Assembly (NCBI RefSeq): GCF_003096035.1 | Contig: NZ_CP029186.1 | Span: 3,889,001-3,953,000 of the forward strand | Direction of reading: 5' to 3' | DNA length: 64,000 nucleotides | Source of the DNA: Flavobacterium album | Lineage (GTDB): Bacteria; Bacteroidota; Bacteroidia; Flavobacteriales; Flavobacteriaceae | Shown here: piece after piece, positions 603-17,859 of the stretch | Numbering within the stretch: position 1 is the stretch's first letter | How the letters are laid out: each line of letters starts with the position of its first letter | The notes under the pieces: generated by a model | The model's input: the letters and a program-made list of their open reading frames with translations, nothing else | Database searches by the model: none | What the model was told of the DNA's origin: nothing | Program-made: the position numbers and the translations under genes

Positions 603-866
603 GCAAGTAGGTTTTTAATTGGTTGAATTGATAGTAATTTTTGTTATCAAGGTAACTAATACTCAGTAATTTAACAAATACATTCACCTTTTGCGGAATA
701 GCATTCAAAAACAAAAGAACATTATAGAATAATCAGGATATCGCATAAAATTGAGATATAAATTAATAATCATTCAACAAAACCTATAAAAAGCCGTTTT
801 AAAAAAATAAAAAAGCCCATTCCTGAAGGAAAGGGCTCACTATTTTCACAAAATAAATTGGCTTTG
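603..866. other. AT-rich intergenic stretch
   Basis: This stretch separates two minus-strand genes. It is AT-rich, with no convincing ORF or RNA. Its only clear element is the terminator hairpin of the downstream-facing gene near its right end. The promoter of the truncated secreted gene should lie here, but no full TTTG/TAnnTTTG pair could be assigned. Confidence 0.5.
801..837 (-). terminator. Rho-independent terminator of the secreted 371-aa gene
   Basis: An interrupted stem pairs AGCCC and TTCCT with AGGAA and GGGCT around a GA loop. On the minus strand it is followed by a T-rich run (positions 813 down to 801). It lies about 30 bases past the stop codon of the upstream gene. Confidence 0.75.
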
Positions 867-1982: not shown

Positions 1983-1994
1983 AATACTAAACTC

Positions 1995-2768
1995 CTATAA
2001 TTTTTTTGCTTCGTTCCAGAAAACATCCATTTCTGCAAGGGTCATATCGGCTAACGGTTTGCCGAGCTCGCCTGCCTTGCTTTCAAGGTACATAAACCGT
2101 TTAATGAATTTTTTATTGGTGCGCTCCAAGGCATCCTCAGGGTTGATGTTTAGGAAACGCGCATAGTTGATCATGGAGAACAGCACATCACCGAATTCCG
2201 ATTCGATTTTATCCGCATCGCCGTTTTTCACCTCTTCCTGGAATTCCTCAATTTCTTCCTGCACTTTATCCCATACCTGGTGCGGCTCTTCCCAATCGAA
2301 CCCAACGCCTTTTGCCTTGTCCTGTATGCGGCTGGCTTTCACTAGCGCAGGCAGGCTTTTTGGTACACCTTCCAGAACCGACTTCTTGCCTTCCTTCAGC
2401 TTTAGCTTTTCCCAGTTCTGCTTTACCTGTTCTTCATCTTCCACAACCACATCGCTATAAATATGCGGGTGGCGGTGTATCAGCTTGTCGCAAATCTCGT
2501 TGGCTACATCGGCAATATCGAAGTCGCACGTCTCACTGCCTATTTTGGCATAAAAAACAATATGCAGCAGTATATCGCCCAGCTCTTTTTTGATCTCCTG
2601 AAGGTTGTTGTCGAGGATAGCATCCCCCAGCTCATAGGTTTCCTCAATAGTAAGATGGCGAAGGCTTTGGAGCGTCTGCTTTTTATCCCACGGGCATTTT
2701 TCGCGAAGGTCGTCCATTATGTCGAGCAGCCTGCCAAAGGCATCGAGTTGTTGCTGGCGTGTGTTCAT
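1995..2768 (-). CDS. mazG: Nucleoside triphosphate pyrophosphohydrolase MazG
   Basis: MazG hydrolyses (d)NTPs to NMP and pyrophosphate, cleaning the nucleotide pool and modulating alarmone levels in E. coli. The 257-residue length matches full-length MazG with two tandem MazG domains. The N-terminal CPWDKKQT motif (about residues 25-32) and the acidic helix IEETYE are diagnostic. The second domain carries the EEIEEFQEE and ESEFGDVLFS acidic motifs that bind magnesium. It lies downstream of def and the DUF5606 gene on the same strand, a common flavobacterial arrangement. The ATG start follows a purine-rich stretch. Confidence 0.95.
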   Translation of the reverse strand: MNTRQQQLDAFGRLLDIMDDLREKCPWDKKQTLQSLRHLTIEETYELGDAILDNNLQEIKKELGDILLHIVFYAKIGSETCDFDIADVANEICDKLIHRHPHIYSDVVVEDEEQVKQNWEKLKLKEGKKSVLEGVPKSLPALVKASRIQDKAKGVGFDWEEPHQVWDKVQEEIEEFQEEVKNGDADKIESEFGDVLFSMINYARFLNINPEDALERTNKKFIKRFMYLESKAGELGKPLADMTLAEMDVFWNEAKKL

Positions 2769-2930
2769 GGTGGAAAATTTTGTGCAAAATTACGGAATAG
2801 CTACCGAAATATACTCCTACGGGAAATCAAAAAGATTTTTTACAACGAATGACACAAATTTCAAAATTCCAGTACTCCAAAAATTTAAGGAATTCGTGTA
2901 ATTCGTAGCAAACACAATTCATAGGGAAAA

Positions 2931-2965
2931 TAAAAAATCCTGCCTCTTGTTTGCAAAAAGCAGGA
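2931..2965 (-). terminator. Terminator after the DUF5606 gene
   Basis: TCCTGC pairs with GCAGGA around a 16-base loop and is followed on the minus strand by a T-rich run. It lies just past the stop of the DUF5606 gene and may limit read-through into mazG, about 170 bases further on. Confidence 0.7.
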
Positions 2966-2988
2966 CTAGTAATATAACGTAAGATGTA

Positions 2989-3438
2989 TTATTCTTCTGT
3001 CTTTACCTCTTCAGCAGGGGTTTCATCTACGGCAGGGGCGGCAGCAACAGGGGCTTCTTTATTAACAAGGCCTTTTGCCTGGAGCATGTTGTACCAGTTA
3101 AGTATCTTTTTGATATCAGAAGCATAAACCCTGTCCTCATCGAATTCAGGAAGCACTTCCCTGAAATACGACTCCAGCTTGGCATTGTCTTCTTTATGCG
3201 ACATTGCCGGGCCGTTATCCTCTTTTTCAGCTATGGCGCGGAATACCTCTGAAAGCTTTATCTCGCCGTCATACGTGTATACCGATATTTCAGAAAGCAG
3301 GCTTACGTTGCTCCTCATGCCAACGGTTATTTTCTTGCCGTCTATAAGCGATTCTGCCACAAAACCTGTGCGCGTTTGGATCTTTAGTTCATATAATCCA
3401 GGTTTCCCTGAGATAGCTAATATTTTTTCAACACTCAT
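2989..3438 (-). CDS. DUF5606 family protein
   Basis: A 149-residue cytoplasmic protein. I chose the internal ATG encoding MSVEKILAISGKPGLY because homologues begin there and the in-frame upstream extension is low complexity. The N-terminal half (about residues 1-60) is a small beta-barrel-like domain with the conserved SGKPGLYEL motif. The middle is helical, and the last 25 residues are an Ala/Pro/Glu-rich disordered tail. The gene lies between def and mazG, as in many flavobacteria. Its biochemical role is unknown; the conserved position suggests a housekeeping task. Confidence 0.85.
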   Translation of the reverse strand: MSVEKILAISGKPGLYELKIQTRTGFVAESLIDGKKITVGMRSNVSLLSEISVYTYDGEIKLSEVFRAIAEKEDNGPAMSHKEDNAKLESYFREVLPEFDEDRVYASDIKKILNWYNMLQAKGLVNKEAPVAAAPAVDETPAEEVKTEE

Positions 3439-3493
3439 TTTTCTTTTTTTTAAGGATGGCAAATATGCAATGTTTGGTTTTAAAAACAAAAAA

Positions 3494-4081
3494 TTACCTG
3501 CCTTTTTTGGCGATAAATTTCATTTTATAGTCCGGCCTTGTCTTGCCTTCCATGATGTTCTGTAGTTTCTTTTGTATCAAACGTTTTTTCAGCGACGATA
3601 TTTTATCGGTAAACAAAATACCTTCAATATGATCGTATTCGTGCTGTATCACCCTGGCAATAAGCCCGTCATACACATCCGTGTGCTTGTTAAAATCCTC
3701 GTCGTAATATTCTATGGTAATCTTTTCATGGCGGTACACGTCCTCACGAACTTCAGGAATGCTCAGGCAGCCTTCGTTAAAGCCCCACTCCTCGCCTTCT
3801 TCCTTCAGCATTACCGGGTTGATAAACGTTTTTTTGAAATTCGCCAGCTGTTCCTGCTCTTCTTTCGGAAGGTCCTCGTCATCGCTGAATGGCTTGGTAT
3901 CTACAATGAACAGGCGTATGGCAAGGCCAACCTGTGGTGCAGCAAGGCCAACGCCATAGGCATTATACATGGTCTCATACATATCAGCAACGATCTGCTT
4001 AAGGTTCGGCATATCCTTCGGGATGTCCTCTCCTTTTTTTCTGAGCACAGGGTCGCCGTATCCTACAATCGGTAATATCAT
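3494..4081 (-). CDS. def: Peptide deformylase
   Basis: Removes the N-formyl group from nascent proteins; a metal enzyme essential in most bacteria. All three signature motifs are intact: GVGLAAPQ (residues 43-50), EGCLS (103-107, metal-binding Cys) and HEYDH (147-151, two metal-binding His and the catalytic Glu). The 195-residue length is typical of the Bacteroidota form, with its acidic insertion at residues 66-78. The DUF5606 gene follows 55 bases downstream. A TACTTTTG -7 box lies about 45 bases upstream. Confidence 0.97.
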   Translation of the reverse strand: MILPIVGYGDPVLRKKGEDIPKDMPNLKQIVADMYETMYNAYGVGLAAPQVGLAIRLFIVDTKPFSDDEDLPKEEQEQLANFKKTFINPVMLKEEGEEWGFNEGCLSIPEVREDVYRHEKITIEYYDEDFNKHTDVYDGLIARVIQHEYDHIEGILFTDKISSLKKRLIQKKLQNIMEGKTRPDYKMKFIAKKGR

Positions 4082-4125
4082 ATCAAATGTATTTTAAATC
4101 AGGCATAACGCCTTTTTCCGGACTG

Positions 4126-4133
4126 CAAAAGTA
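4126..4133 (-). promoter_or_regulatory. Candidate -7 box of def
   Basis: The minus strand reads TACTTTTG, matching the Bacteroidota TAnnTTTG consensus, about 45 bases before the def ATG. No TTG was found at the expected 19-20 nt upstream, so this is a partial match. Confidence 0.4.
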
Positions 4134-4222
4134 ATAAATAAAATTGACTCTTTAACCCTTGCCCAAATGCTAAAATTTTGTGAGAATTCACGCATGCTCC
4201 CGAAGAATGATTTGGCATTTAG

Positions 4223-4230
4223 TACCTTTG
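4223..4230 (+). promoter_or_regulatory. Candidate -7 box of the FUSC gene
   Basis: TACCTTTG matches TAnnTTTG and lies 17 bases before the chosen ATG, which gives a short leader. This supports starting the FUSC protein at the later ATG rather than at the upstream in-frame ATG. Confidence 0.45.
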
Positions 4231-4247
4231 CGGCATACCCTTTTTTT

Positions 4248-6467
4248 ATGATCGAAAAGATAAGGCAGTTTGCTGACAGCACCAATTTTACCAAAGCCGT
4301 TATCGTAACGGTCGCTGCCGTGCTGCCTGTACTTATCCTCGCTCAGTTCGGGCATTTCGAGACGGGTTTTACCATTGCCATAGGCGCATTCCTTACCTAT
4401 CCGTCCGATATCCCGAGCAACCTGTTGCACCGTACCAAGGGCCTTCTTACTGCTTCCGTTATCGTTGCGGGGTGCATGCTGGCTGTGAATACGCTGCATC
4501 CCTGGCCGTGGTTGTTCTATCCCGTGGTGATTGCGCTGGTTTTCTTCCTTTCGATGATATCGGTCTACGGGCAGCGCGCCACGATGGTTTCTTTTTCGGG
4601 ATTGCTTGCGCTGGCGCTGGGTTCCGGGCACATTCATACAGGGTGGGATATCGTTACCTATGTAGGACTGGTACTTGCCGGGGGACTGTTCTATACCTTT
4701 ATATCGGTAACATTCAACTACCTCAGCCCGCACCGTTATACCGAGTTGGAGGTAGCAGAGTGTATGAAGCTAACCTCAAAATACATGAAGCTGCGCGGTG
4801 ACCTCTGGAACGCAGATGCCGACAGGGCTGCCATTGTAGAGAAACAGCTGCACCTGCAGGTCGAGATAAACACCACCCACGAAAACCTGAGGGAAATACT
4901 CCTTCGTAACCGGAGCAATGCCGGGCACTCTAACCGAAGCCGGAAAATGCTCTTGGTATTCATATCGTTAATGGAAATACTCGAACTGGCGCTGTCCACC
5001 TCGTTCGACCACAGCAAGCTGCACCAGAAATTCAGCGCGCACCCTCAGGTTTTGGACACTTACCAAAATCTTGCTTACAACTTGGCATCGACATTAAAAA
5101 GGATATCGAAAAGCATTTTTAACCGCAAAAAGTATCTGCCAAAGCACCAACTGCTCCGGGATGTGGAAGCGCTCGAACAAGCCATTACTGATTATGAAGC
5201 CCTGCTTGGCAAAGAAGCTGCCTCCGAAGGGGTGTGGATGCTGTCGAACATGCTGCATTATGCCGAAAAGCAGTTAGAGCGCATCAAGATCATTGAGCGT
5301 GCCTTTACCAATAAAATTGACTTCAAAGACCTGAAAGGGCGCGATAAAGACCTTGAAAAATTCCTTGCGCCGGAGTATTATCCATGGCATACACTGCGCG
5401 AGAACCTTAGCTTTTCGTCAACCATATTCAGGCATTCGCTGCGGCTCACGCTTACGGTTGCCATTGGGTTTATCATCGGAATCATCTTTGAACTGGAAAA
5501 CGTGTACTGGATACTGCTCACTATTGTGGTTATCATGCGCCCCGGCTACGGGCTTACCAAGCAGCGTTCTTTCCAAAGGATTATTGGCACGGTAACAGGC
5601 GGCGTGATTGCCTTCGCCTTCCTGAGCGTTGTGCACCATAATATCATTATAGGTACATTGGCTATTGTATGCATGATATTGGGCTTTGCGTTCACAGCCA
5701 TCAATTACCGCATAGGTGCAACATTCGTGACCATTTATGTAGTGTTTGTCTATGCCTTGCTGAACCCGAATTTTGCCGACGTTATCCAGTACCGCATTGT
5801 AGATACTGCTGTGGGTGCGCTGCTCGCTTTTATGGCGAATTATTTCCTGTGGCCCACGTGGGAATTTATCAACCTGCCGGGATTCATCAAAAAATCCATA
5901 GAAGCCAACCGGAACTACCTTGAAGAAATATCGGTGTATTACAATCATAAAGGCAATGTAACGACTTCCTACCGCCTTGCCCGTAAGAGTGCTTTTATCG
6001 AGTTGGGTAACCTGATGTCGTCCTACCAGCGTATGGCACAGGAACCTAAGTCGAAACAAAAACAGCAGCAGCAGGTGTACAAGTTGGCAGTGCTCAACCA
6101 TACATTGCTATCGTCGCTGGCTTCACTGGGCACGTACATCCAGTCACACAAGACCTATAAGGCGTCTGAAGCATTCAATGTAGTCGTGAATACGGTCATC
6201 CGAAACCTTGACCATGCCATTGCCCTGCTTGCCATGGAAACACAGGCGGGCGAAGCACAGCAATCGCAAAACGAAGAGCTTGCCATGCGCTTTACAGAAC
6301 TCAAAAACATCCGGGCGCGTGAACTTCGTGAAGAACATTTAACCGAAGAAGAGGAATTCAGGTTAAAAATGGAAGAGGCACACTTGGTTATAGAGCAATT
6401 GGTTTGGTTGAACAGCTTATCTGAAAAGATAGTGAAAGCGGCCAGGCAATTGGAGTTGGTGAAGTAG
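4248..6467 (+). CDS. FUSC family (YccS/YhfK-like) inner-membrane protein
   Basis: A 739-residue membrane protein with two blocks of transmembrane helices (about residues 15-160 and 390-520), each followed by a long soluble helical region. This layout is typical of the YccS/YhfK branch of FUSC proteins, related to aromatic acid exporters such as AaeB. The second block contains RHSLRLTLTVAIGF and VIMRPGYGLTKQR, characteristic of the family. The ATG encoding MIEKIRQF was preferred over one 27 codons upstream because a -7 promoter box lies between them. It is transcribed divergently from def. The substrate is unknown; an efflux role is an inference from the family. Confidence 0.85.
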   Translation: MIEKIRQFADSTNFTKAVIVTVAAVLPVLILAQFGHFETGFTIAIGAFLTYPSDIPSNLLHRTKGLLTASVIVAGCMLAVNTLHPWPWLFYPVVIALVFFLSMISVYGQRATMVSFSGLLALALGSGHIHTGWDIVTYVGLVLAGGLFYTFISVTFNYLSPHRYTELEVAECMKLTSKYMKLRGDLWNADADRAAIVEKQLHLQVEINTTHENLREILLRNRSNAGHSNRSRKMLLVFISLMEILELALSTSFDHSKLHQKFSAHPQVLDTYQNLAYNLASTLKRISKSIFNRKKYLPKHQLLRDVEALEQAITDYEALLGKEAASEGVWMLSNMLHYAEKQLERIKIIERAFTNKIDFKDLKGRDKDLEKFLAPEYYPWHTLRENLSFSSTIFRHSLRLTLTVAIGFIIGIIFELENVYWILLTIVVIMRPGYGLTKQRSFQRIIGTVTGGVIAFAFLSVVHHNIIIGTLAIVCMILGFAFTAINYRIGATFVTIYVVFVYALLNPNFADVIQYRIVDTAVGALLAFMANYFLWPTWEFINLPGFIKKSIEANRNYLEEISVYYNHKGNVTTSYRLARKSAFIELGNLMSSYQRMAQEPKSKQKQQQQVYKLAVLNHTLLSSLASLGTYIQSHKTYKASEAFNVVVNTVIRNLDHAIALLAMETQAGEAQQSQNEELAMRFTELKNIRARELREEHLTEEEEFRLKMEEAHLVIEQLVWLNSLSEKIVKAARQLELVK

Positions 6468-6523
6468 GTTTTTGTTGGAAGCAGGGATGTCCGAAGTCCG
6501 ATGCGTTTTGGCAACATGCGTCC

Positions 6524-6765
6524 GTGTCATTTCGACCGTAGCGCAGCGGAGTGGAGAAATCTTTAATTATTTATTCTTTTGAAACGAATGTTCGTGTCAT
6601 TTCGACCGCAGTGCAACGGAGTGGAGAAATCTTTAATTATTTATACTGAACGTGCATCCGTGTCATTTTGACCGCAGTGCAACGGAGTGGAGAAATCTTT
6701 AATTATTTATACTGAACGTGCATCCGTGTCATTTCGACCGCAGTGTAACGGAGTGGAGAAATCTC
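6524..6765 (+). repeat. Four tandem copies of a 40-bp palindromic repeat
   Basis: Copies begin at 6524, 6594, 6660 and 6726, with periods of 70, 66 and 66 bases. Each starts GTGTCATTTCGACCG and ends GGAGTGGAGAAATCT; the first three are followed by TTTAATTATTTAT linkers. Within each unit ATTTC can pair with GAAAT and CCGC with GCGG (the CGG of some copies is altered), giving a REP-like hairpin. The array fills the space between the FUSC gene and the GIY-YIG gene, and an inverted copy lies beyond the latter. Confidence 0.9.
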
Positions 6766-6799
6766 AGAAAAAACATATATTTGAAATAAATACCTTACG

Positions 6800-7108
6800 A
6801 TGTATAAGACACTTGGAACACACAATTACTACGTCTATATCCTTACAAACAAAATAAAAACAGTCCTTTATATTGGCTTTACAAACAATATGAAGGAACG
6901 ATTATACTATCATCAACATCCTGAAGCATTTTGCAAGGCTTTTACAACAAAATATAAATGCTATAACCTTGTGTATTGGGAACATTACCAGGATGTTGAT
7001 ATCGCAATTGATAGGGAAACACAGCTAAAAAAATGGAGCCGGAAGAAAAAGGATGCACTCATTACCGCCTTCAATCCGGAGTGGAAATTTCTCAATGATG
7101 AAATTTGA
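6800..7108 (+). CDS. GIY-YIG nuclease family protein (UPF0213-like)
   Basis: A 102-residue single-domain GIY-YIG protein. The YVY (residues 11-13) and YIG (24-26) strands, Arg34 in MKERL, and the metal-binding Glu73 in DRETQLKKW are all present, so the active site looks intact. The C-terminus is basic. Stand-alone proteins of this size are common in Bacteroidota; a few relatives are structure-specific nucleases, but most are uncharacterised. Here the gene lies between inverted repeats, which hints at a selfish or repeat-linked role. It is more AT-rich than its neighbours. Confidence 0.9.
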   Translation: MYKTLGTHNYYVYILTNKIKTVLYIGFTNNMKERLYYHQHPEAFCKAFTTKYKCYNLVYWEHYQDVDIAIDRETQLKKWSRKKKDALITAFNPEWKFLNDEI

Positions 7109-7113
7109 ATTTT

Positions 7114-7153
7114 GAGATTTCTCCACTCCGCTGCGCTGCGGTCGAAATGACAC
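7114..7153 (-). repeat. Inverted copy of the 40-bp repeat
   Basis: Reverse complement of the unit that precedes the GIY-YIG gene. Its central part is a clean palindrome (CCGC, AGCGCA, GCGG). It also lies just past the 3' end of mqo and could act as a bidirectional transcription stop. Confidence 0.9.
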
Positions 7154-7200
7154 GGAATTAGCGCTACACGACTGAAAACTGTGACTGCGACTGAAAACTA

Positions 7201-8697
7201 CTAATTCACCAACCCCAGCACTTCACTCGTATGTTCCCGCATGGCTTTAAGGATTTGCGGGTTCTCATTAAGGGACTGCCCGTGGGACGGGATCATCTCA
7301 CGAAGCTTATCCTGCCATTCAGCGCTTTGCATCTGCTCCGGGAAGCAGCGCTCAATAACATCGAGCATGATAGAAACCGCTGTTGATGCTCCCGGGGAAG
7401 CACCTAGTAATACGGCCAGTGAGCCATCGGCGCTGTTGATGACCTCGGTACCGAATTCCAGCTTGCCGCCTTCTTTTTCATCTTTCTTGATCACCTGCAC
7501 GCGCTGCCCTGCCGTTTCCAGTTCCCAGTCTTCCATCTTTGCTTCAGGAAGGTATTCTTTCAGGGCTTCAAGGCGGTCTTCGCGGCTTTGGGTAACCTGT
7601 TCAATGAGGTATTTCGTCAGCGGGATATTATGGAAACCAGCAGAAAGCATCGGACCTATATTATTGAATTGTATTGAAAGCGGCAGGTCGAAGTATGAAC
7701 CGTTCTTCAGAAATTTAGTGCTAAAGCCCGCATAGGGTCCGAACAACAATTCTTTCTTCCCGTTGATCATACGGGTATCGATATGCGGCACCGACATTGG
7801 CGGCGCACCTACCGAAGCTTTGCCATATACTTTCGCATTGTGTTTTGCTATCACCTCCGGGTTGTTGCATTTTAGCCATTGCCCGCTCACAGGAAAGCCG
7901 CCAAAACCTTCGCCTTCCGGGATATTGGCTTTTTCGAGAAGGTGCAGTGAGCCGCCTCCCGCGCCGATAAAGACGAATTTGGCATAAGGCCTTGTCTTTT
8001 CACCGGTTTGCAGGTCTTTTATCTTAAGCTTCCATTTGGGTGCTTTTGCCGAACGGCGGATACCTTTCACTTCGTGCTCAAAAAACAGGTTTATGCCTTC
8101 CTGCTTTTCGAGCCAAACGAACATATCTCGGGTCAGTTCGCCAAAGTTCACATCGGTGCCTATCTTCATGCGCGTGGCAGCCACAGGCTCATTGCCTTCA
8201 CGGCCTTCCATGATTAGCGGCGCCCATTCGGCGATCACTGCGGGGTCTTCGGTATATTCCATCCCCTGGAAAAGCGGGAATTTTTGAAGCGCATCATAGC
8301 GTTTTTTCAGGTAGGCCACGTTCTCTGCGCCCCACACAAAACTCATGTGCGGAATACTTTTTACAAATTCTTCGGGATTTGAGATCAGGCCTCTTTCGAC
8401 CAGATGTGCCCAGAATTGTTTTGAAGCTTCGAACGATTCGGCGATCTTCACCGCTTTGGAGGTGTCGATGCTGCCATCGGGAAGCTCGGGCGTATAGTTG
8501 AGCTCGCAGAAAGCCGAGTGGCCTGTACCCGCGTTGTTCCACGCATCGCTGCTTTCGGCGGCAGCCACATCAAGCCTTTCGTAAATGTTTATTGTAATTT
8601 CAGGCATCAGCTCTTTCAGGAACATGCCAAGGGTAGCGCTCATGATTCCGGCGCCTATAAGAACCACATCGGGTTCATTTTGTATGATTGCAGACAT
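7201..8697 (-). CDS. mqo: Malate:quinone oxidoreductase
   Basis: A membrane-associated FAD enzyme that oxidises malate to oxaloacetate and passes electrons to quinone, replacing or supplementing NAD-linked malate dehydrogenase in the TCA cycle. The 498-residue length fits. The N-terminal [14 protein letters not shown] (residues about 11-24) is the FAD dinucleotide-binding motif. [20 protein letters not shown] and [11 protein letters not shown] are family signatures. I chose the ATG encoding [10 protein letters not shown] because a palindrome carrying a -7 box lies between it and the earlier in-frame ATG. It has its own transcription unit. Confidence 0.95.
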
Positions 8698-8700
8698 TGT

Positions 8701-8724
8701 GTAAATTTGAATATGCAAATTTAC
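8701..8724 (-). promoter_or_regulatory. Palindromic promoter element before mqo
   Basis: A perfect 9-bp inverted repeat, GTAAATTTG and CAAATTTAC, around a 6-base spacer. Each arm contains TAAATTTG, a match to TAnnTTTG, one on each strand. The minus-strand copy (8716-8723) is placed to drive mqo with a very short leader. The plus-strand copy has a TTTG 19 nt upstream, inside mqo. It could be a regulated promoter or a coincidence of AT-rich sequence. Confidence 0.45.
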
Positions 8725-8800
8725 CTCCAAAGAGTCTAAATATTATCTTAATATACGCAGTTGCAGGCCTAAAGCACCATTTTTACCGAATTTGAAGGAA

Positions 8801-9217
8801 TTACAGGAATTTTTTTCGCGATAGGTAATCCTGTAATAAGATCGTTGCCGAAATTTCATCAATCAGGGCTTTATTCTGACGCTGCTTCTTTTTAAGGCCA
8901 CTGTCAATCATCGTCTGGAAGGCCATTTTACTTGTGAAGCGCTCGTCTACCTGTTCCAGCGGCATATCTGGGAACTGCTCTTTAAATTTTACGATAAAAG
9001 CTTCGATAATAGGCGCGCTTTCGGATGGCTGGCCGTTCATCTGTTTTGGCTCGCCAATAAGTACGCGCTCTACTTTTTCTTTTGCAAAATAATTACGCAG
9101 GAAATCGATAGCCGTAGCCGACTCAATAGTGGTAAGTCCAGAGGCTATCATTTGCATCTCATCGGTTACTGCTATTCCGGTGCGTTTAAGTCCGTGATCT
9201 ATGGCGAGGATCCTCAT
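8801..9217 (-). CDS. ruvX: Putative pre-16S rRNA nuclease / Holliday junction resolvase RuvX (YqgF)
   Basis: A 138-residue RNase H-fold protein of the YqgF family. The first strand carries the acidic residue in ILAIDHGLKRTGIA; a GEP motif follows near residue 79; DERFTS and the C-terminal IDEISA contribute the other acidic residues. In E. coli YqgF is needed for 16S rRNA 5' maturation. In many flavobacteria it is next to def; here the two are separated by the FUSC, GIY-YIG and mqo genes. It follows the unknown 263-aa gene by 29 bases. Confidence 0.93.
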   Translation of the reverse strand: MRILAIDHGLKRTGIAVTDEMQMIASGLTTIESATAIDFLRNYFAKEKVERVLIGEPKQMNGQPSESAPIIEAFIVKFKEQFPDMPLEQVDERFTSKMAFQTMIDSGLKKKQRQNKALIDEISATILLQDYLSRKKFL

Positions 9218-9246
9218 TTCTGGAGTTAGATTATTAGTTTATTGTT

Positions 9247-10038
9247 TTACATTAGTACATCCATGAGGATGTATTCATTTTCAAAATCGAATACTGCGCA
9301 GGTATCCCTTAGCATTTCATAGCATTCAGCTAAATTATCATTCGTCAGGGCCGGGTCAAGGGTTTTCAGAAAATCACAGTAACCATTGTATTTGTTTTTA
9401 GCAGGAATGCAGGCGCCAAGTTGCGAGCTGTCGTAATAATGATCGGTTATCTCCTTGAAATAATTAAGGTTGGCCATCATCCTGAAACTCATCAGGGCAG
9501 GCCTTGACGAAAGCCAAAAATCGTTTATACCTTTAAAATCCCTTTTATAGCCAATATAAATGAACATTTCCTGTTCCGATGGGGCAGGCTTGTGTAAAAC
9601 GACATGTTCGGCAACAGTGACGTCCTCATGATGTTGCAACAGGTTTATAATGTCCACGGGGTTTAGCTCACGGCCGCTGTCAGCTACATGCAGGATCTCT
9701 TCATCAGTAAGTGTTTCGATATAATAAAATTCCCTGAAGTTCAACTTAAAAAAATCTTCAAGCAGGTATACTGAAGGCGTGTAAGGATTCTCAAAATAGG
9801 AAGAATTGATAAACAATTCAACCGAGCTATCCTCAGTATCAAAAAGCTTTGAATGATCGATCTCCAAAGAACCGTATTCCGATCTGGCAGCCCATCGTCC
9901 CTCATTGGTATCATATAATTCGATCCCCCGTAACTTTAAAAACCCTAGTATCGATTTCTTCATCAGGAACTGATTGATATCCGCAAGCTGGCGTACGCAG
10001 TATATATTTATTTTGTAGTGCTTCGTCTCCATAAACAT
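9247..10038 (-). CDS. Hypothetical protein (263 aa)
   Basis: I do not recognise this family. It is a soluble, acidic protein without a signal peptide or membrane segment, with many aromatic residues (Tyr, Phe) and two Cys in the C-terminal third. Mixed alpha/beta composition is suggested by the alternating pattern. It follows the methyltransferase gene by 10 bases and precedes ruvX by 29, so all three are probably co-transcribed. The composition is that of the host genome, with no sign of disruption. A Met two codons in is an alternative start. Confidence 0.6.
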   Translation of the reverse strand: MFMETKHYKINIYCVRQLADINQFLMKKSILGFLKLRGIELYDTNEGRWAARSEYGSLEIDHSKLFDTEDSSVELFINSSYFENPYTPSVYLLEDFFKLNFREFYYIETLTDEEILHVADSGRELNPVDIINLLQHHEDVTVAEHVVLHKPAPSEQEMFIYIGYKRDFKGINDFWLSSRPALMSFRMMANLNYFKEITDHYYDSSQLGACIPAKNKYNGYCDFLKTLDPALTNDNLAECYEMLRDTCAVFDFENEYILMDVLM

Positions 10039-10048
10039 CGGGCTGCTT

Positions 10049-10786
10049 TCATTTTTTTAGCCTTCCCACCCGCAAAAGTAACAGAAAAACAGCCTTGCCA
10101 TCGCTTTTGTCCCATGATTCTTTTAATTCATCACGAATGAGGTCGACCGGGTTGCTGCCGTTCTTTTTGATATAATGCTGCACTGCCGACCACGAGTCGA
10201 TATAGCCAATAAGGTGCTCAAACGTCCATGTAAAGGTCTCAGAGAATTGTTTTGCTTCAATTTCGTCGAACGGAAAAGGGATGGTTTCGTAATCCTTGTC
10301 TACATACCTGCGCTCCGGATCCCAGTAGTCGCCTAATGTCTTTTGATGGAAATGGCGGATGATGCGGTCGCTCTCAGGGTTGGTGGAAAAAAGGCCGTAA
10401 CCCATAACTATGAATAGCCCATCCGGTTTAAGAATACGGTACACTTCTTTATAAAAAGCATCAAAATCAAACCAGTGGATGGCCTGAGCAACTGTTATAA
10501 GGTCGAACATTTTATCATTAAAAGAGGTATGCTCTGCCCTTTCTTTCTTATAAATAATATTATCGGCAGTAGCAGCATTTTCCAGCTGCTTATCGCTGAT
10601 GTCTGTCGCATATACCGTTGTAAAGTGCTTTGCAAGCTTTGCTGCTACCTGCCCATTGCCTGTAGCTACATCGAGGGCAAGGCCTTTTTGAGGGACTAAG
10701 GAAATTATATAATCAATGATCTCATGGGAATAGTCGGGCCGGAATTTAGCATAGGTTTGCGCCTGTGTGGAGAAGTTGTCTTTCAT
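10049..10786 (-). CDS. Class I SAM-dependent methyltransferase
   Basis: A 245-residue Rossmann-fold methyltransferase of the Methyltransf_11/UbiE-like type. Motif I is ALDVATGNGQVAAKL (residues about 37-51); the post-I acidic strand TVYATDIS and motif II ITVAQAIHWFDFD follow. The HWFD motif resembles yeast trans-aconitate methyltransferase-type proteins, but the substrate cannot be read from sequence. Its first six codons are part of an 18-bp direct repeat whose other copy lies 1.35 kb upstream, so an MBL-fold gene has been inserted between this gene and its ancestral promoter region. Confidence 0.88.
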   Translation of the reverse strand: MKDNFSTQAQTYAKFRPDYSHEIIDYIISLVPQKGLALDVATGNGQVAAKLAKHFTTVYATDISDKQLENAATADNIIYKKERAEHTSFNDKMFDLITVAQAIHWFDFDAFYKEVYRILKPDGLFIVMGYGLFSTNPESDRIIRHFHQKTLGDYWDPERRYVDKDYETIPFPFDEIEAKQFSETFTWTFEHLIGYIDSWSAVQHYIKKNGSNPVDLIRDELKESWDKSDGKAVFLLLLRVGRLKK

Positions 10787-10787
10787 T
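10770..10787. repeat. Direct repeat, left copy
   Basis: An 18-bp perfect repeat that overlaps the ATG and first five codons of the methyltransferase gene; it matches the copy at 12119-12136 exactly. Confidence 0.95.
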
Positions 10788-12071
10788 TTAATAGCTTTGT
10801 GAAATATTTAATGTACATAAGCCCGAACACGGAGCAGTCGCTGTTATCAAATTTTCTTTTAAGGCAATGCTTCCTCTAATAGTTTCTAGATGATTCCAAT
10901 TATTTGAAACATATTTTCTTCTAGCATTACAATGAGCATGTTTATGAGTGTTGTCAAGCCCAAATGAATATGCCAACATTGATGGTTTACTGGCATATGG
11001 CACACCGTCAACACTTCCATTTGCACCATGATGACTAGCTGTTATTCCTATAATTGTTTTTGAAGGATGATAAGGTATTTTTAAAAATTTTGCATCCCCA
11101 GATAATAAAACATACTCATTATTTCCATAGTGAACAAATAAAGCCAGCCCAGAATTGTTCTTATTATTTATATTGCCGGAACACCTAACTATTCTGTGAT
11201 TTGAAAAGTCAATAAAGTTATCTGAATTATTCCAACATAGTAAATTTCCATTCCGTAATAAAGCAGTAGCTAATTTAATCGCTGTATTACTTAGCCTTTG
11301 TTTTGGAACTAACCATTCAGTATTTAAAAGGTCTGAGTTATTTATGTCGAAAGCTAAACATATATGATCTAAATCCCAATGTGAAAGTATTACTTTGGGT
11401 TGATTAGAAAAACATAACTTAAATCCAAAAGGAAAAGTTTTTTTATTGGCATTACATCCCCCGCCAACATCGAAATAAAGTAAAGGTATATTATCACCGC
11501 TTACTAATGCATTACAATTACCCTGTCCCACATTATATATATTAACATGACTGAAACTATTCAAATTAATATTCTCCAAAAATGCTTTATTTTGTTTTCT
11601 TGGGGTACTACTTATTTGGGTGGCGGAAACTATTTCCCTAATCTTTTCCTGCTCGATTTCGGAAAGGTTTTCAAATAGTGTTATATTTTCTAAATCATAA
11701 TTACCCATAGGCTCTTCGCCTATTAATTGAAAATTGAAAAATTGTTGTTGTAAAATATCTGTTTCTCTTATATTTGTTTGAATTTTCATCCAATCACTCT
11801 CCATTCCATAAATAAAATCCGTTCCGAATTTATCAATAAGTTTTGAATAATTTCCACGAACATCAATAATTATTGAAGGAAAATTTAAAATGGTTTCATT
11901 ATTAATATTTACCTGAAGAGCATCCTTAATATTGATACAGTCGAACCTTATATGTAATTCTCCCATAATTTTCTCAATAGAATCCAAATAAGCAAAATAG
12001 CTTTCTCCTGTCAATTTAGGTAATTCACTTTCTTTGATAAGTTTGGGATTGATATTAAACCCTTCATTCAT
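10788..12071 (-). CDS. MBL-fold hydrolase with ComEC/Rec2-like domain (soluble)
   Basis: A 427-residue soluble protein. Residues 1-165 are an N-terminal domain I do not recognise. From about residue 175 a metallo-beta-lactamase domain of the ComEC/Rec2 type follows: VGQGN (181-185), the metal motif SHWDLDH (230-236, where Trp occupies the second His position of HxHxDH), LSGD (323-326) and SHHG (346-349). There is no membrane channel as in true ComEC. The gene is AT-rich and Asn-rich, unlike its neighbours, and lies in a repeat-bounded insertion. Stand-alone proteins of this kind often occur among accessory or defence genes; a nuclease or phosphodiesterase role is an inference. Confidence 0.8.
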   Translation of the reverse strand: MNEGFNINPKLIKESELPKLTGESYFAYLDSIEKIMGELHIRFDCINIKDALQVNINNETILNFPSIIIDVRGNYSKLIDKFGTDFIYGMESDWMKIQTNIRETDILQQQFFNFQLIGEEPMGNYDLENITLFENLSEIEQEKIREIVSATQISSTPRKQNKAFLENINLNSFSHVNIYNVGQGNCNALVSGDNIPLLYFDVGGGCNANKKTFPFGFKLCFSNQPKVILSHWDLDHICLAFDINNSDLLNTEWLVPKQRLSNTAIKLATALLRNGNLLCWNNSDNFIDFSNHRIVRCSGNINNKNNSGLALFVHYGNNEYVLLSGDAKFLKIPYHPSKTIIGITASHHGANGSVDGVPYASKPSMLAYSFGLDNTHKHAHCNARRKYVSNNWNHLETIRGSIALKENLITATAPCSGLCTLNISQSY

Positions 12072-12118
12072 AAAATAATTTATTTAAATGTTTATTTATC
12101 GGTATATTTTCGCTTGGA

Positions 12119-12136
12119 GAGAAGTTGTCTTTCATT
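12119..12136. repeat. Direct repeat, right copy
   Basis: Second perfect copy of the 18-mer, on the far side of the MBL gene. On the minus strand it spells ATG plus five codons of the methyltransferase, a non-functional remnant or footprint of its start. Confidence 0.95.
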
Positions 12137-12219
12137 GTGTGCTGTTTACCATAAAGATAAAAAAATATAACAAAAACGAGACAGTACATTGAAAAATATT
12201 TGTACTTTGTTCCGTGAAA

Positions 12220-12255
12220 TTTGGCATCCATAATAATTACGGATTGTTATCTTTG
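12220..12255 (+). promoter_or_regulatory. Candidate dapD promoter
   Basis: TTTG (12220-12223) and TATCTTTG (12248-12255) are separated by 24 nt, slightly longer than the usual 19-20. The -7 box lies 20 bases before the dapD ATG. Confidence 0.5.
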
Positions 12256-12275
12256 CCGAAAACATACTTTTTGCT

Positions 12276-13091
12276 ATGAACGCCTTACAACCTATTATAG
12301 AGGCTGCCTGGAATGACAGGTCGCTGTTACAGAATGAAACAACTACCAATGCCATACGCGAGGTTATCGAACTTTTAGATTCCGGGAAACTTCGGGTTGC
12401 CGAACCTGTAGAAAGCGGCTGGCAGGTAAACGAATGGGTGAAAAAGGCAGTGGTGATGTATTTCCCTATCCAGAAGATGGAAACCCTTGAGGCCGGTATA
12501 TTTGAGTACCACGACAAAATGCCGCTAAAGCGCGGCTATGCCGAAAAAGGCATTCGTGTGGTACCTAATGCCGTAGCCCGCCATGGAGCCTACATATCAT
12601 CGGGCGTGATCCTGATGCCAAGCTATGTGAACATCGGCGCTTATGTAGACGAGGGCACCATGGTAGATACCTGGGCCACCGTAGGCAGCTGCGCACAGAT
12701 AGGCAGAAACGTACACCTGAGCGGCGGTGTGGGCATTGGCGGCGTATTAGAACCGCTCCAGGCCGCACCCGTTATCATTGAGGATGGTGCCTTCATCGGC
12801 TCCAGATGCATTGTGGTAGAAGGTGTTCGCGTAGAGGCCGAAGCGGTGCTTGGCGCTAACGTGTGCCTGACTGCCTCCACAAAAATTATAGACGTTACAG
12901 GCGATACGCCGATAGAAATGAAAGGTGTGGTGCCTGCACGAAGTGTTGTGATACCGGGCAGCTATACCAAAAAATTCGCTGCAGGCGAATACCAGGTGCC
13001 GTGCGCCCTTATTATTGGGAAGCGCAAGCCTTCAACCGACCTGAAAACTTCGCTCAATAACGCTTTAAGGGAATATGACGTAGCGGTTTAA
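12276..13091 (+). CDS. dapD: 2,3,4,5-tetrahydropyridine-2,6-dicarboxylate N-succinyltransferase
   Basis: Transfers succinyl from succinyl-CoA to tetrahydrodipicolinate in the lysine/diaminopimelate pathway, which supplies peptidoglycan. The 271-residue length matches E. coli DapD. The N-terminal helical domain is followed by a left-handed beta-helix of hexapeptide repeats (about residues 105-230), including GVILMPSYVNIGAYVDEG and AQIGRNVHLSGGVGIGGV. A -7 box lies just upstream. The GT2-GT9 gene starts 9 bases after its stop, so the two are probably co-transcribed although functionally distinct. Confidence 0.97.
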   Translation: MNALQPIIEAAWNDRSLLQNETTTNAIREVIELLDSGKLRVAEPVESGWQVNEWVKKAVVMYFPIQKMETLEAGIFEYHDKMPLKRGYAEKGIRVVPNAVARHGAYISSGVILMPSYVNIGAYVDEGTMVDTWATVGSCAQIGRNVHLSGGVGIGGVLEPLQAAPVIIEDGAFIGSRCIVVEGVRVEAEAVLGANVCLTASTKIIDVTGDTPIEMKGVVPARSVVIPGSYTKKFAAGEYQVPCALIIGKRKPSTDLKTSLNNALREYDVAV

Positions 13092-13100
13092 CCATAGCTT

Positions 13101-14936
13101 ATGAGTGAACTCAACACAAGAATATCTGCCCTCGCAATTGTTTTTAACGAAGAACATAATATAAGGGAGTACCTGCAAAACATGTCGTTTGCCGACGAGA
13201 TCGTTGTTGTGGACTCTTTCAGTACCGACCGTACGCCACAAATCATAAAGGAAGAATTCCCCCATGTGCGGTTCTACCAGCGTGTTTTCGATGATTTTTC
13301 CTCACAGCGTAATTATACCATAGACCTGGCTAACAACGAATGGGTGGTTTTTTTTGATGCCGACGAAAGGGTTACCCAACAAGGCATTGAAGAGATCGTT
13401 GCTACGGTAAACAGCAATCCTGAAGAAGCCGCTTTCTGGGTAAAGCGTATTTTTTACTACCAGGGCAGGCCGCTTGTAAACAACAGCTTTAACGAAGACA
13501 GGACCGCAAGGGTTTTCCGGAAGTCGCTGTGCCGTTATTCCGATAAGCTTGTGCACGAACAGCTGAGCATCAACGGCAAAAGCCGTGTACTAAAGCATGC
13601 CATACACCACTACTCCTTTAAGGACAAGGAAGACTTTTTGCAGAAAAGGCTCCAATATTCAAAACTGAAGGCAAAAGAATTTCATAAAGATGGCATAAGG
13701 CCGAATATTTTTCATTTTACGGTGCGCCCGGCTTTCCGCTTCTTTAAGTATTATGTCCTGAAATTCGGTTTTGTAAATGGCAGGCGCGGCTATGAAATTG
13801 CATCCATACTGGGGCACCATGTGTACATGCGCTATGTGTACCTCAAAGAAATGTATGCCGGCGAAGGCAAAAAGATATTAGTGATCCAGCAGAAAATGAT
13901 TGGAGACGTGCTGGCCAGCAGCGTTATCTGCAATACACTGAAAGAAAACTGCCCGGCATCGCAAGTAGATTATATGGTGCACGACTTTACCAAACCGGTA
14001 ATTGAGAACAACCCTAATATAGACAACATCATTGTCTTTAAGGAAGAATACCGCAAAAGCCGTCTGGCCTTGTTCCGCTTTGCACTGTCAATCCGAAAAT
14101 CCAAATACGATGCGGTTATCGATGCGTATAACAAATGGGAAAGCGGCATCATTACACTATTCTCGGGTGCAAAAACAAGGATAGGCTATAAAAAATGGTA
14201 TACCTCTTTCTTTTACGACAAGACTATTTCGCCCGACTGGAAAGCGCCCAACTCGGCACTGGTACACCGTATGCAGCTTGCAGAAGCCCTTACAGGACAA
14301 CAACACCCGGTAGTGTACCCTAAGATATACCTTTCCGAAAGCGAAGTGGCCGGGGCAAAAAAAGTACTTGAAGCAAGCCTTGATATGTCGTTGCCCGTGA
14401 TCATGATAAGCGTACTGGGAAGTGACGAAATAAAGAGCATGCCGGCACCTGAAATGGCGGCCATATTAGATGCTATTGTACAGAACAGCAATGCGCAGCT
14501 GCTTTTTAATTACCTCCCTAAACAAGTGGATCAGGCCCGCGAGATCTACAACCTGTGCCGCCCCGAAACACAGCAAAGGATATTATTCGACCTGTATATA
14601 AGGGGATTGCGCGAATTTATGGCAGTACTCTCGCAATGCGATGCGCTGATAGGTAATGAAGGCGGCGCGGTGAATATGGCCAAAGCGCTTAGTGTGCCTA
14701 CATTTACCATATTTTCCCCGTGGATCAACAAAGGATCGTGGAGCATGCTCAACGATGATGAAACGCACATGGCAGTGCACCTACAGGACTTTTTCCCGGA
14801 AATTTATGGCGACAGGCACCCGAAGGAATTCAAGGAAAAGTCACTCGAACTATATCAAAAGCTGAAGCCGGAATTGTTTAAGGACAAGCTGCTACGTTTC
14901 CTGAAACTGAATGTTAAGCAGCATATGCCTATTTAG
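13101..14936 (+). CDS. Fused glycosyltransferase: GT2 (WaaE/KdtX-like) plus GT9 (heptosyltransferase-like)
   Basis: A 611-residue protein with two glycosyltransferase domains. Residues 1-250 are a GT2 domain of the WaaE/KdtX type: ALAIVFNEEHNI, the DSFSTDRT strand and the metal-binding FFDADER. Residues about 258-605 are a GT9 domain: ILVIQQKMIGDVLASSVI is the GT9 N-terminal motif and ALIGNEGGAVNMAKALSVPT the C-terminal nucleotide-sugar binding motif. Separate in enterobacteria, these two LPS-core functions are combined here in one chain without an obvious linker. It probably adds sugars to the lipid A-core at the cytoplasmic face. It heads the surface-glycan cluster. Confidence 0.9.
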   Translation: MSELNTRISALAIVFNEEHNIREYLQNMSFADEIVVVDSFSTDRTPQIIKEEFPHVRFYQRVFDDFSSQRNYTIDLANNEWVVFFDADERVTQQGIEEIVATVNSNPEEAAFWVKRIFYYQGRPLVNNSFNEDRTARVFRKSLCRYSDKLVHEQLSINGKSRVLKHAIHHYSFKDKEDFLQKRLQYSKLKAKEFHKDGIRPNIFHFTVRPAFRFFKYYVLKFGFVNGRRGYEIASILGHHVYMRYVYLKEMYAGEGKKILVIQQKMIGDVLASSVICNTLKENCPASQVDYMVHDFTKPVIENNPNIDNIIVFKEEYRKSRLALFRFALSIRKSKYDAVIDAYNKWESGIITLFSGAKTRIGYKKWYTSFFYDKTISPDWKAPNSALVHRMQLAEALTGQQHPVVYPKIYLSESEVAGAKKVLEASLDMSLPVIMISVLGSDEIKSMPAPEMAAILDAIVQNSNAQLLFNYLPKQVDQAREIYNLCRPETQQRILFDLYIRGLREFMAVLSQCDALIGNEGGAVNMAKALSVPTFTIFSPWINKGSWSMLNDDETHMAVHLQDFFPEIYGDRHPKEFKEKSLELYQKLKPELFKDKLLRFLKLNVKQHMPI

Positions 14937-14988
14937 AGCATATTGAACATGCGATCTTTATTTTCTTCTGCGTCCGTTTCATAGAAAG

Positions 14989-15013
14989 ATTGCTTCGTCG
15001 TGCCTCCTCGCAA
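14989..15013. repeat. Short dispersed palindromic repeat
   Basis: ATTGC and GCAAT arms enclose a 15-base TTCGTCGTGCCTCCT-type core. This sequence type is a widespread intergenic repeat in bacterial genomes. Here it lies between convergent genes, where it may help terminate transcription. Confidence 0.5.
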
Positions 15014-15039
15014 TGACTCGCGTAGTGGGAACTTAAAAA

Positions 15040-15870
15040 TTACTCAACAGTAACGCCCGGCTCCTTCACAATGCCATAAGGTGTCCATTTTATCTTTTTC
15101 TCTTTAACTTCTTTACGGATGGCAAGGTTGGCCGCTAATGATTCCGGCGTTTTGTAACCGCGTGCATGGTCAAGGTGCAAGCATACGGCCTTGTGGCGTA
15201 TCTGCTTGCCTTTCACGCCAAAATTCTCAAGACGTTCGCCAAACTCACGGTCAGGACCGCCATATTTCATTCTTTCATCATAACCATTCACCGCTATCAT
15301 ATCCTCACGGAAACCTGATGAGTTACAGTTATTGAACGAAGGTGTTGTAGTAGTCACCGTATCGAGCACGGCACCTAATACAGGGCCCGCAGATAATTTC
15401 AGCGCCTGCGAAAAGCCCAGCTTGTCCTGTTTTTTCAACCAGTCTACATCAAAGCAATTTTCGTTGAGGATATCTTCTTTGGTAATGGCCTCACTTGTTT
15501 TCATGGTGAGCTTGCAGTACCCACCTGAAAGGAATTTCCCCTTCTCGGCAAATTTTGCATGTATCTCTACAAAATCCTTACGCGGAATGCAGTCGCCATC
15601 GGTCATGATGATGTACTCATTGGCCGCCTCTATAATGGCAATATTCAGTATCTCCTGCCTGCGATAGCCTTTGTCCTCATGCCAAAGGTGGCGTACAGGA
15701 ACGGGATAATCAGCGGCATAGCGGTCGATCAGCTCTTTTGTAGCCGGCCGCGAACCGTCATCGGCAATAATAAGCTCAAAATCTTTATAGGTCTGGTTGC
15801 TGTACCCTATCAGGACATTCTCCAGCCAGCGTTCTGCATTATACGTACTTACTACTACTGATATTTTCAT
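15040..15870 (-). CDS. Family 2 glycosyltransferase
   Basis: A 276-residue GT-A protein. The N-terminus SVVVSTYNAERWLENVLIGY is the GT2 nucleotide-sugar motif, ADDGSRP follows, and TDGDCIPRKDF (about residues 90-100) carries the DxD-like metal-binding acids. The C-terminal part with NGYDERMKYGGPDREFGERL resembles the Glyco_transf_7C domain of galactosyltransferases and chondroitin polymerases and contains the likely catalytic acidic residues. It probably builds LPS or another surface glycan with the neighbours. The acceptor and donor are unknown. It is a single minus-strand gene convergent with the GT2-GT9 fusion. Confidence 0.9.
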   Translation of the reverse strand: MKISVVVSTYNAERWLENVLIGYSNQTYKDFELIIADDGSRPATKELIDRYAADYPVPVRHLWHEDKGYRRQEILNIAIIEAANEYIIMTDGDCIPRKDFVEIHAKFAEKGKFLSGGYCKLTMKTSEAITKEDILNENCFDVDWLKKQDKLGFSQALKLSAGPVLGAVLDTVTTTTPSFNNCNSSGFREDMIAVNGYDERMKYGGPDREFGERLENFGVKGKQIRHKAVCLHLDHARGYKTPESLAANLAIRKEVKEKKIKWTPYGIVKEPGVTVE

Positions 15871-15962
15871 TTTTTTTCTGAGATTCTTAATTTCTTAGGT
15901 ACTTAGCAAACTAAGGAACTAAGCACCTCAGCACCTAAGCACCTTTTACTGCACAAAGATAG

Positions 15963-16736
15963 TTATTTTGTCTTTTTCCTGAGGCCAAGCTTTTCCTTAA
16001 GGCGGCGCTTGCGGTGAAAGCGGTTGGCAAAATATTCCGTATACTTTACCATCATTGCCAGTACTTCACTGTATGGGCTGCCGTAAAGCCTGGCATATTC
16101 ATCACTCATTACTTCCACAAGGCGGATCTCGGGAGTGAGCTTTGCCATATTGATTACCCTTTGCTTCAGTGTCATAGCGCTGCTATGGAAGTTCATCCGG
16201 TTCAGGTCGACCAGGAAAAATTCATATTTCTCAGGGCCGGTCTTTTTTATCAGTGTATTGCCCGGTGTATGGTCGAGAAATTCTATTCCCAGCTCATGCA
16301 GCCTAAAGGTGAACTGCGTGAACTGGCGCAGGATGATCTCGTGTTCCGGATAATCAGGAATCTCTATCAGCTGCCTGTATGTAAGGTCGGCTTCCAGCTG
16401 CTCGCTCATATAATAGCTGTCCTTTAGCGACAAAGGCCCCTTGTTTTCAAAATAAGCAATGGGCTGCGGGGTGCCAATACCTTTTGAAAGCAGGATGTTT
16501 GCAAATTCATAAGAGCGCTGTGCCTTGCCTTTTCGCAAAAAACGGTACACTAATTTATTGAGGATGTTGGGCACTTTGAACGATTTGACATTTACCGTCA
16601 TACTGCCCAGCGGAAATAGCTTTATCCTGTTGCGCTTGCCGTCGATGAACAGAACGCCTTCGGTATCAAAATTGTCGATAATATGTGTTATCTCTTGTGT
16701 TTGCGGAAGGAATTCAGGATGGATGGTTTTATTCAT
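15963..16736 (-). CDS. Lipopolysaccharide (Kdo/WaaP-type) kinase family protein
   Basis: A 257-residue protein with a protein-kinase-like fold of the LPS kinase family (WaaP, KdkA, InaA). The catalytic loop is FLDHTPGNTL (about residues 154-163, Asp and Asn) and the metal-binding Asp is in FFLVDLNRM. Such kinases phosphorylate Kdo or heptose in the LPS core, using ATP on the cytoplasmic side of the inner membrane. The basic C-terminus could contact the membrane. Its place among glycosyltransferase genes supports a core-LPS role. Confidence 0.85.
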   Translation of the reverse strand: MNKTIHPEFLPQTQEITHIIDNFDTEGVLFIDGKRNRIKLFPLGSMTVNVKSFKVPNILNKLVYRFLRKGKAQRSYEFANILLSKGIGTPQPIAYFENKGPLSLKDSYYMSEQLEADLTYRQLIEIPDYPEHEIILRQFTQFTFRLHELGIEFLDHTPGNTLIKKTGPEKYEFFLVDLNRMNFHSSAMTLKQRVINMAKLTPEIRLVEVMSDEYARLYGSPYSEVLAMMVKYTEYFANRFHRKRRLKEKLGLRKKTK

Positions 16737-16834
16737 CTACAATTGCAAATTTTGTACAAAAGTAACCATTTTGCATTTTACACTTCAAATAATTGCGCTA
16801 TTTTTACCGGATTAAGTATCTGGCTGAAATATCC

Positions 16835-16964
16835 AACCACATAGGAACATAGGTTTCATAGCGTTTTAAAGAAAGTGTATACTCACATAGGTGAAGCGTC
16901 GCTTCATCTATGTGTTCTTAAGCATCACTTAAAGGTTCTTTTAGGCCTATGTATCTATGTGGTT
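16835..16964. repeat. Nested palindromic (MITE-like) intergenic element
   Basis: Outer arms at 16835-16853 and 16946-16964 are inverted copies (17 of 19 bases match). Nested within, 16884-16914 is a near-perfect hairpin with arms of 14 bases and a GTC loop. The whole 130-bp unit can fold into a cruciform. It fills the gap between a kinase gene and a plus-strand glycosyltransferase gene that diverge here. No ORF is present. Confidence 0.75.
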
Positions 16965-17004
16965 AAAAATAAAACAGATCGTATAATTAACCATAACCCG
17001 CTTT

Positions 17005-17859
17005 ATGTTCAACCATTACCTCATCACGCGCTTCAACCTGAAAAACCCCAAGTGGGATGTTACCAAGAACAACGAATCCCTTCTGACGGATGAGTGGCTG
17101 GAACACAGGCTTTGGCTGTTCGAGAATTTCTGCTTCCCTTCTGTGGCGGCACAGGTGAACAGGAACTTTGAATGGCTTATTTATTTTGACATAACCACAC
17201 CTGATACTTATAAGCAAAAAATTGCCGCTATCATCGGGAACCAGCCCAACATCAGGCTGTTTTATATTGAAGGGATGCCTGCTTTTTACCCTGAGATCCA
17301 AAAGCTCATCGCAACAGAAGCTACCGGAAAGCCTTACCTCATCACTTCGCGCATTGATAATGACGACTGCATACGGAACACCTTCATCGACGAAGTGCAA
17401 AAACAATTTGACAAACAGGATTACCTTGCCATCGATGTAATAAAAGGCTATTCTTTACAGATAAAGCCCGTGATCATGCTGGGCAAGAAAGAGCACATCT
17501 TCAACCCGTTCATTAGCCTTATCGAGAAAAACGACAACCCGACGACCGTTTGGGCCAACGACCATAACCACTGGAAAAAAGAAACCCGGGTAAAGCAGGT
17601 TACCGACAAACGCTTATGGATGTCGATCATCCACGAGAAAAATAAAGTGAACGAGTTCGACGGCTACGGCAACATCAAATGGGACGATGTAAAGAACGAT
17701 TTTATCGTGTCCGGTGCCATGGCATCAACTATAAGCCGGGACATACTGCCGCACAGCCAGTGGTGGTGGACCAGCTTTAAGAACGGATTGTACGTAAACT
17801 GGGTACTGTTTAACAAGTCGCTCAAAAAAGCGCTTGGCATTTATAAATTAAAACAATAG
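17005..17859 (+). CDS. Putative rhamnosyl transferase family protein
   Basis: A 284-residue protein whose opening (FNHYLITRFNLKNP, then DEWLEHRLWLFENFCFPSVAAQ) matches the putative rhamnosyltransferase family PF11316 as I know it. The stretch LITSRIDNDDCI (about residues 112-123) contains a DND motif like the metal-binding DxD of GT-A enzymes. No membrane segment is visible. The actual donor sugar is unproven. It begins a plus-strand run of glycan genes; the GT4 gene follows 39 bases after its stop. Confidence 0.8.
   Translation: MFNHYLITRFNLKNPKWDVTKNNESLLTDEWLEHRLWLFENFCFPSVAAQVNRNFEWLIYFDITTPDTYKQKIAAIIGNQPNIRLFYIEGMPAFYPEIQKLIATEATGKPYLITSRIDNDDCIRNTFIDEVQKQFDKQDYLAIDVIKGYSLQIKPVIMLGKKEHIFNPFISLIEKNDNPTTVWANDHNHWKKETRVKQVTDKRLWMSIIHEKNKVNEFDGYGNIKWDDVKNDFIVSGAMASTISRDILPHSQWWWTSFKNGLYVNWVLFNKSLKKALGIYKLKQ

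Follow-up and report, generated by a model that had tools for sequence, protein, structure and literature searches.

A foreign ComEC-like gene at the start of a methyltransferase gene in Flavobacterium album

How does a single gene come to stand between two exact copies of a short repeat at the very start of another gene? We examined this question in a 64,000-nucleotide stretch of the Flavobacterium album genome (assembly GCF_003096035.1, contig NZ_CP029186.1, positions 3,889,001 to 3,953,000), here called the window and numbered from its first letter. In this window a gene on the minus strand (10788..12071) encodes a protein of 427 amino acids (aa) with a ComEC-like metallo-beta-lactamase (MBL) domain. 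It lies directly upstream of a gene for a 245-aa class I S-adenosylmethionine-dependent methyltransferase (10049..10786, minus strand; Pfam PF08241 and others), which we call the host gene. An 18-bp sequence is present at 10770-10787 on the minus strand, at the present methyltransferase start, and again at 12119-12136 on the same strand, behind the native upstream region. The original prediction, made from the letters of the window, had reported this exact repeat with one gene between its copies, and a genome-wide search and shuffling confirmed it. The 3.98-Mb genome held no third exact site and one further site that resembled the 18-mer with 2 mismatches; none of 100 shuffled windows contained two sites, even when 3 mismatches were allowed. 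The insert between the copies measures 1,331 bp and consists of a 47-nt leader (12072..12118, minus strand), running from the right copy to the start codon of the inserted gene, and the 1,284-bp gene, a single intact open reading frame (ORF) whose stop codon abuts the left copy, as had been described. The left copy does lie at the methyltransferase start, although it is not the first six codons, as first thought: it comprises one upstream base and 17 nt of the gene, which cover five codons and the first two bases of a sixth. The AT-richness noted earlier was also borne out, with a GC content of 0.301 in the insert compared with 0.423 and 0.464 in its flanks and 0.441 in the window. At 0.305, the inserted gene had the lowest GC content among the 52 ORFs of at least 100 aa in the window.

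The methyltransferase was found in 46 of 398 genomes of the genus (E <=1e-40, own genome counted), and we compared its locus in 30 relatives. The native site is marked by a dapD-like gene for tetrahydrodipicolinate N-succinyltransferase (12276..13091, plus strand; PF14805). In 22 of the 30 relatives the distance from the methyltransferase start to dapD was 88-691 bp, and in four it was 1,035-1,045 bp with a different ORF (208-209 aa) inside; in the other four dapD fell outside the stretch examined, leaving 26 readable gaps, all too short to hold a 1,284-bp gene. None of the 30 loci carried the inserted gene at this site, so none showed the arrangement, raised beforehand, of the gene in the same place without a repeat. 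The predicted empty site was found in the nearest relative, G231 (79% at the amino-acid level), in which dapD is followed by one identical 18-mer and then by the methyltransferase. G231 is collinear with the window from 865 to 17831 at 77-83% nucleotide identity. In G231 the counterparts of window positions 10063-10787 and 12107-14905 join at 11221-11252, and the match to the upstream DNA extends right up to the repeat. G231 is also without the window stretches 6474-7257 and 9222-10062, which hold one gene each. No genome closer than G231 was found among 335 of its relatives (19 with the methyltransferase at E <=1e-60), a set that largely overlaps the genomes searched earlier. The insertion of the gene at the methyltransferase start is nearly certain.

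As a control for the repeat, we examined 1,214 ORFs of at least 150 aa from the loci studied and the window, which are not fully independent because some loci overlap; the inserted gene of the window itself was excluded beforehand. An exact 18-bp repeat near both ends was found for four of them, all re-fetched copies of the inserted gene, and the longest exact flanking repeat among the remaining 1,210 was 15 bp. In bacterial DNA, exact repeats of at least 18 bp with a spacing of 0.3-4 kb are no rarity (20 in 1.43 Mb of other loci examined); the exceptional feature is the placement of the repeat at both ends of a lineage-specific insert, not the repeat as such. The longest repeat among the other ORFs, which is A-rich and may be due to chance, flanks a gene adjoining another member of the protein family (L036:11207-12116).

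Several findings bear on where the gene came from. Within the genus, 4 of 398 genomes matched the inserted protein at E <=1e-3, own genome included, and the only strong match beyond it was in G206 (E 1.5e-50, 35% identity). Profile searches gave 4 of 397 genomes of the taxonomic family (own, and three at E 7e-6 to 5e-4) and 4 of 395 of the class (own; G1098 at E 1e-28, with two internal stops; G1116 at E 1e-17; G956 at E 1e-4). A protein database returned 82 matches, the inserted protein among them, of which P0002-P0035 are 43-51% identical over most of its length. In a tree of 87 rows the inserted protein joined P0019 (from locus L035), P0021 and P0027 at 97/95, and the G206 copy sat in a separate clade despite coming from the same genus, so that the gene tree departs from the genus, as had been anticipated. 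The protein family is sparse and scattered, with members in several phyla. Taken together, the discordant tree, the lowest GC content in the window and the sparse distribution in the genus point to horizontal acquisition. No vector of the gene emerged from the records searched: none of 50,697 phage records matched, 3 of 42 candidate stretches were viral contigs, which matched the MBL part at 26-39% identity, and 6 of 72,556 plasmid records matched, all below 60% identity.

The idea that the gene is ancestral and its repeat fortuitous is hardly credible, for although exact 18-bp repeats a few kilobases apart do occur, it is contradicted by the empty site in G231, the low GC content, the discordant tree and the finding that 0 of 1,210 other ORFs are so flanked.

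What the insertion did to the two genes can be read at its borders. The motif TAnnTTT[AG], which we take to be the -7 element of Bacteroidota promoters, lies 24-34 nt ahead of the methyltransferase ATG in 23 of 30 relatives; shuffled single upstream regions yield it in 3-20% of cases. In the window it was found 24 nt ahead of the ATG in the right copy (12152..12159, minus strand) and was absent before the left copy. This retention of a native promoter-like motif with the right copy, which the original prediction did not include, means that the native promoter now probably drives the inserted gene. Judged from these motifs, the inserted gene likely uses the promoter and start region of the host gene. 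From the original methyltransferase start codon runs a 23-codon leader ORF (12064..12135, minus strand). There is an overlap of 8 nt between its stop and the start of the inserted gene, and the two may be translationally coupled. On the other side, the left copy restores the start codon of the methyltransferase, with an N-terminus that fits those of relatives. The insertion did rebuild the 5' end of the host gene, as had been proposed.

We then considered what the inserted protein might be. No Pfam, NCBIfam or PADLOC model matches it, and PADLOC models match 3 of 37 relatives, though only at E 0.002 (LmuA). Its C-terminal part (residues about 171-425) has a ComEC-like MBL fold with metal-site residues invariant across 37 sequences, which supports the identity suggested at the outset, and residues about 18-155 tentatively form an OB-like domain. 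ComEC/Rec2 carries an N-terminal OB-fold domain. The MBL domain is common to the inserted protein and the ComEC/Rec2 DNA-uptake channel (PDB 9ic4, 9vcb), whereas the multi-helix membrane part of the channel would find no room in 427 aa. In the predicted model there are no long helices or helical domain, the longest helix having 13 residues. The protein is a soluble ComEC-like MBL protein and probably a nuclease.

Tuck and others (PMC12799240) show that Hachiman, AVAST and other systems have repeatedly taken up ComEC-like MBL pro-nucleases, which a partner protease activates. These gated pro-nucleases, HamM, Avs1a and CanC, have the fold and the acquisition pattern in common with the inserted protein. 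They differ in having a protease alongside and two disordered insertions over the active site. The near neighbours of the inserted gene are the methyltransferase, dapD, a ruvX-like gene (8801..9217, minus strand; PF03652), an ORF of 263 aa without a Pfam match and a glycosyltransferase, and no protease gene is among them. The model likewise has no disordered loop, with pLDDT, a model-confidence score, as a proxy for disorder: in the MBL part its lowest 10-residue block scores 81, and no loop is of low confidence.

The neighbourhoods of other family members were informative about function. Of 150 relatives obtained from the genome collection 80 were kept, and 82 readable loci entered a census. 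McrB and McrC adjoin the family gene in 3 of these; HsdM-like and HsdR-like genes occur in 7 and 6 loci, and patatins of two kinds in 8 and 4, within the DNA examined and not always adjacent. An operon-like neighbour was present in 56 of 80 loci. These 56 neighbours matched 173 PADLOC families, compared with 8 for 50 distant genes from the same loci; the figures count families rather than neighbours and so give a contrast, not a rate. Pfam identified patatin in 4 of the 56 and NA37 in 3. The surroundings of the protein family are enriched in known defence genes. Lone copies are not unusual, however, since 21 of 80 loci have no neighbour on the same strand within 150 bp. The same protein family forms MBL-McrB-McrC (L125, L035) and McrB-McrC-MBL (L061) clusters, and L035 holds the sister of the inserted protein, which is preceded by an SNF2-type helicase and an Eco57I-type methylase and followed by McrB and McrC. 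We presume that this arrangement resembles DISARM. Unlike these clusters, the inserted gene has no McrBC partner, and no McrC (PF10117) was found in its whole genome. A McrBC census (PMC11090510) mentions an MBL fold in one legend, and a literature search for McrBC, metallo-beta-lactamase and anti-phage defense together gave no match. On the strength of fold and neighbourhood, a role as a defence nuclease is likely.

Three further arrangements were seen among family members. In G206 (L125:9514-14736) a gap of 20 bp separates the family gene from the McrB gene that follows, and McrB directly adjoins McrC, so that the three look like an operon. Five loci of the 82 (L055, L059, L063, L065 and L066) have, near the family member, an S8-type protease gene paired with another, different MBL gene; these pairs recall the published nuclease-protease pairs. 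In addition, ORFs of 1,352-1,405 aa fuse the MBL family to other sequence (L097:9902-13960, L099:9905-14122 and L110:9905-14122), and NHL propeller repeats were present in the two of them that were scanned.

How, then, did the gene arrive? For 18 bp to be duplicated, the DNA must have been cut with a stagger or have undergone a recombination of equivalent effect. We propose that a bare 1.3-kb gene from the defence pool was captured once at a staggered break, gained a promoter there and encodes a metal-dependent nuclease against foreign DNA, an account to which we give about an even chance. A break staggered by about 18 nt would have opened in the first codons of the methyltransferase gene, and a foreign fragment would have been ligated into it, with end joining as the simplest means, and the ends filled in. 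End joining is available, because the genome encodes Ku and, side by side with it, a LigD with ligase, phosphoesterase and polymerase domains. The insert may have been kept because the newcomer gained the promoter and start region of the host gene, including the 23-codon leader that overlaps its own start; the 18-bp duplication would at the same time re-found the methyltransferase as the second gene of a new operon. The protein would bind nucleic acid through its OB-like N-terminus and cleave the DNA of phages or other foreign DNA, either alone or with a resident system. Capture leaves one coincidence unexplained: the insert stops precisely where the stop codon does. Capture at a break is our preference as to the route, and among routes we favour a one-off capture over shrinkage of an island, then import of an older insertion, then movement in trans. 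The locus would then be a freeze-frame of a bare defence-type gene becoming expressible in a new host in one step, a single insertion supplying promoter and start region while sparing the target gene. A further point of interest is the family of soluble ComEC-like nucleases itself, whose other members recur in several phyla next to genes for McrBC, type I restriction and patatin.

The strongest alternative, though an unlikely one, is that the inserted gene is all that remains of a larger defence island or integrative element, which came in by recombination at an 18-bp core and later lost the rest. Site-specific integration leaves direct repeats, and the better-known loci of the protein family lie in defence islands. 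However, the insert ends exactly on a stop codon, has kept only a 47-nt leader and holds no recombinase gene or other remnant, its one ORF being the inserted gene, and no element occupies this site in any of the 26 relatives in which both genes could be read.

Distinctly unlikely is an import, in which the insertion arose in another lineage with a diverged methyltransferase start and arrived through homologous recombination of the flanking DNA. The motif QAxxY, known from the methyltransferase N-terminus, is encoded in one of the leader's reading frames (chance 2e-4, post hoc), and an anchored alignment of the leader to the own methyltransferase gave p 0.014-0.05. The resemblance was not significant over all 31 sequences (mean p 0.16-0.28), however, and the match of G231 to the upstream DNA right up to the repeat also speaks against import. 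A longer, decayed duplication in the leader was tried as a candidate and set aside. A local test among 20 sequences gave p 0.07 (own), 0.04 (G231) and 0.01 (L130), and a set of 8 sequences looked significant but had partly been picked by the same scores; over the 31 sequences the candidate failed by the same mean p, with single best p values of 0.035, 0.064 and 0.002 under three controls, and it is kept as a hint.

The original prediction had favoured a one-gene mobile element. We consider it improbable that a transposase, integrase or other enzyme making 18-bp duplications mobilised such a unit in trans, even though the clean ends, the exact duplication, the single gene and the scattered family distribution would suit it. 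Transposons leave target-site duplications, and the likeness here is an exact direct repeat round the insert with one copy in the empty site; the insert differs from them in having no transposase, no terminal inverted repeat (longest exact run 6 bp) and no recurrence. The inserted gene is present once in the genome. Furthermore, among 84 family loci, 83 of them with a readable ORF, none of these 83 other loci had an exact flanking repeat of at least 14 bp (longest 13 bp), a test of exact repeats that would miss decayed ones. With the gene also absent from this site in the loci of all 30 relatives, the mobile element as first proposed is not supported. A bolder version, a portable one-gene defence nuclease that lands in first codons, captures the promoter and spares the target gene, moved by an enzyme not yet known, is a long shot.

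Integration of a reverse-transcribed copy of the gene's transcript at a staggered nick is very improbable: the insert does resemble one transcript, from leader through stop codon, and reverse-transcriptase matches occur at three places in the genome, but none is linked to the insert, and we know of no RNA-mediated route of this kind in bacteria for ordinary genes.

Two other genes near the site are absent from G231. In relatives the methyltransferase is followed by ruvX, which was in the examined locus of 28 of 30; in the window the 263-aa ORF (9247-10038) lies between the two, with no exact flanking repeat of at least 7 bp near its ends. The other is a lone GIY-YIG gene (6800-7108, GC 0.343) within 6528-7149. 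A 35-bp near-palindromic repeat occurs in four direct copies upstream of it and in one inverted copy just downstream, and the gene and these repeats, which resemble repetitive extragenic palindromic elements, are perhaps a mobile nuclease-repeat pair.
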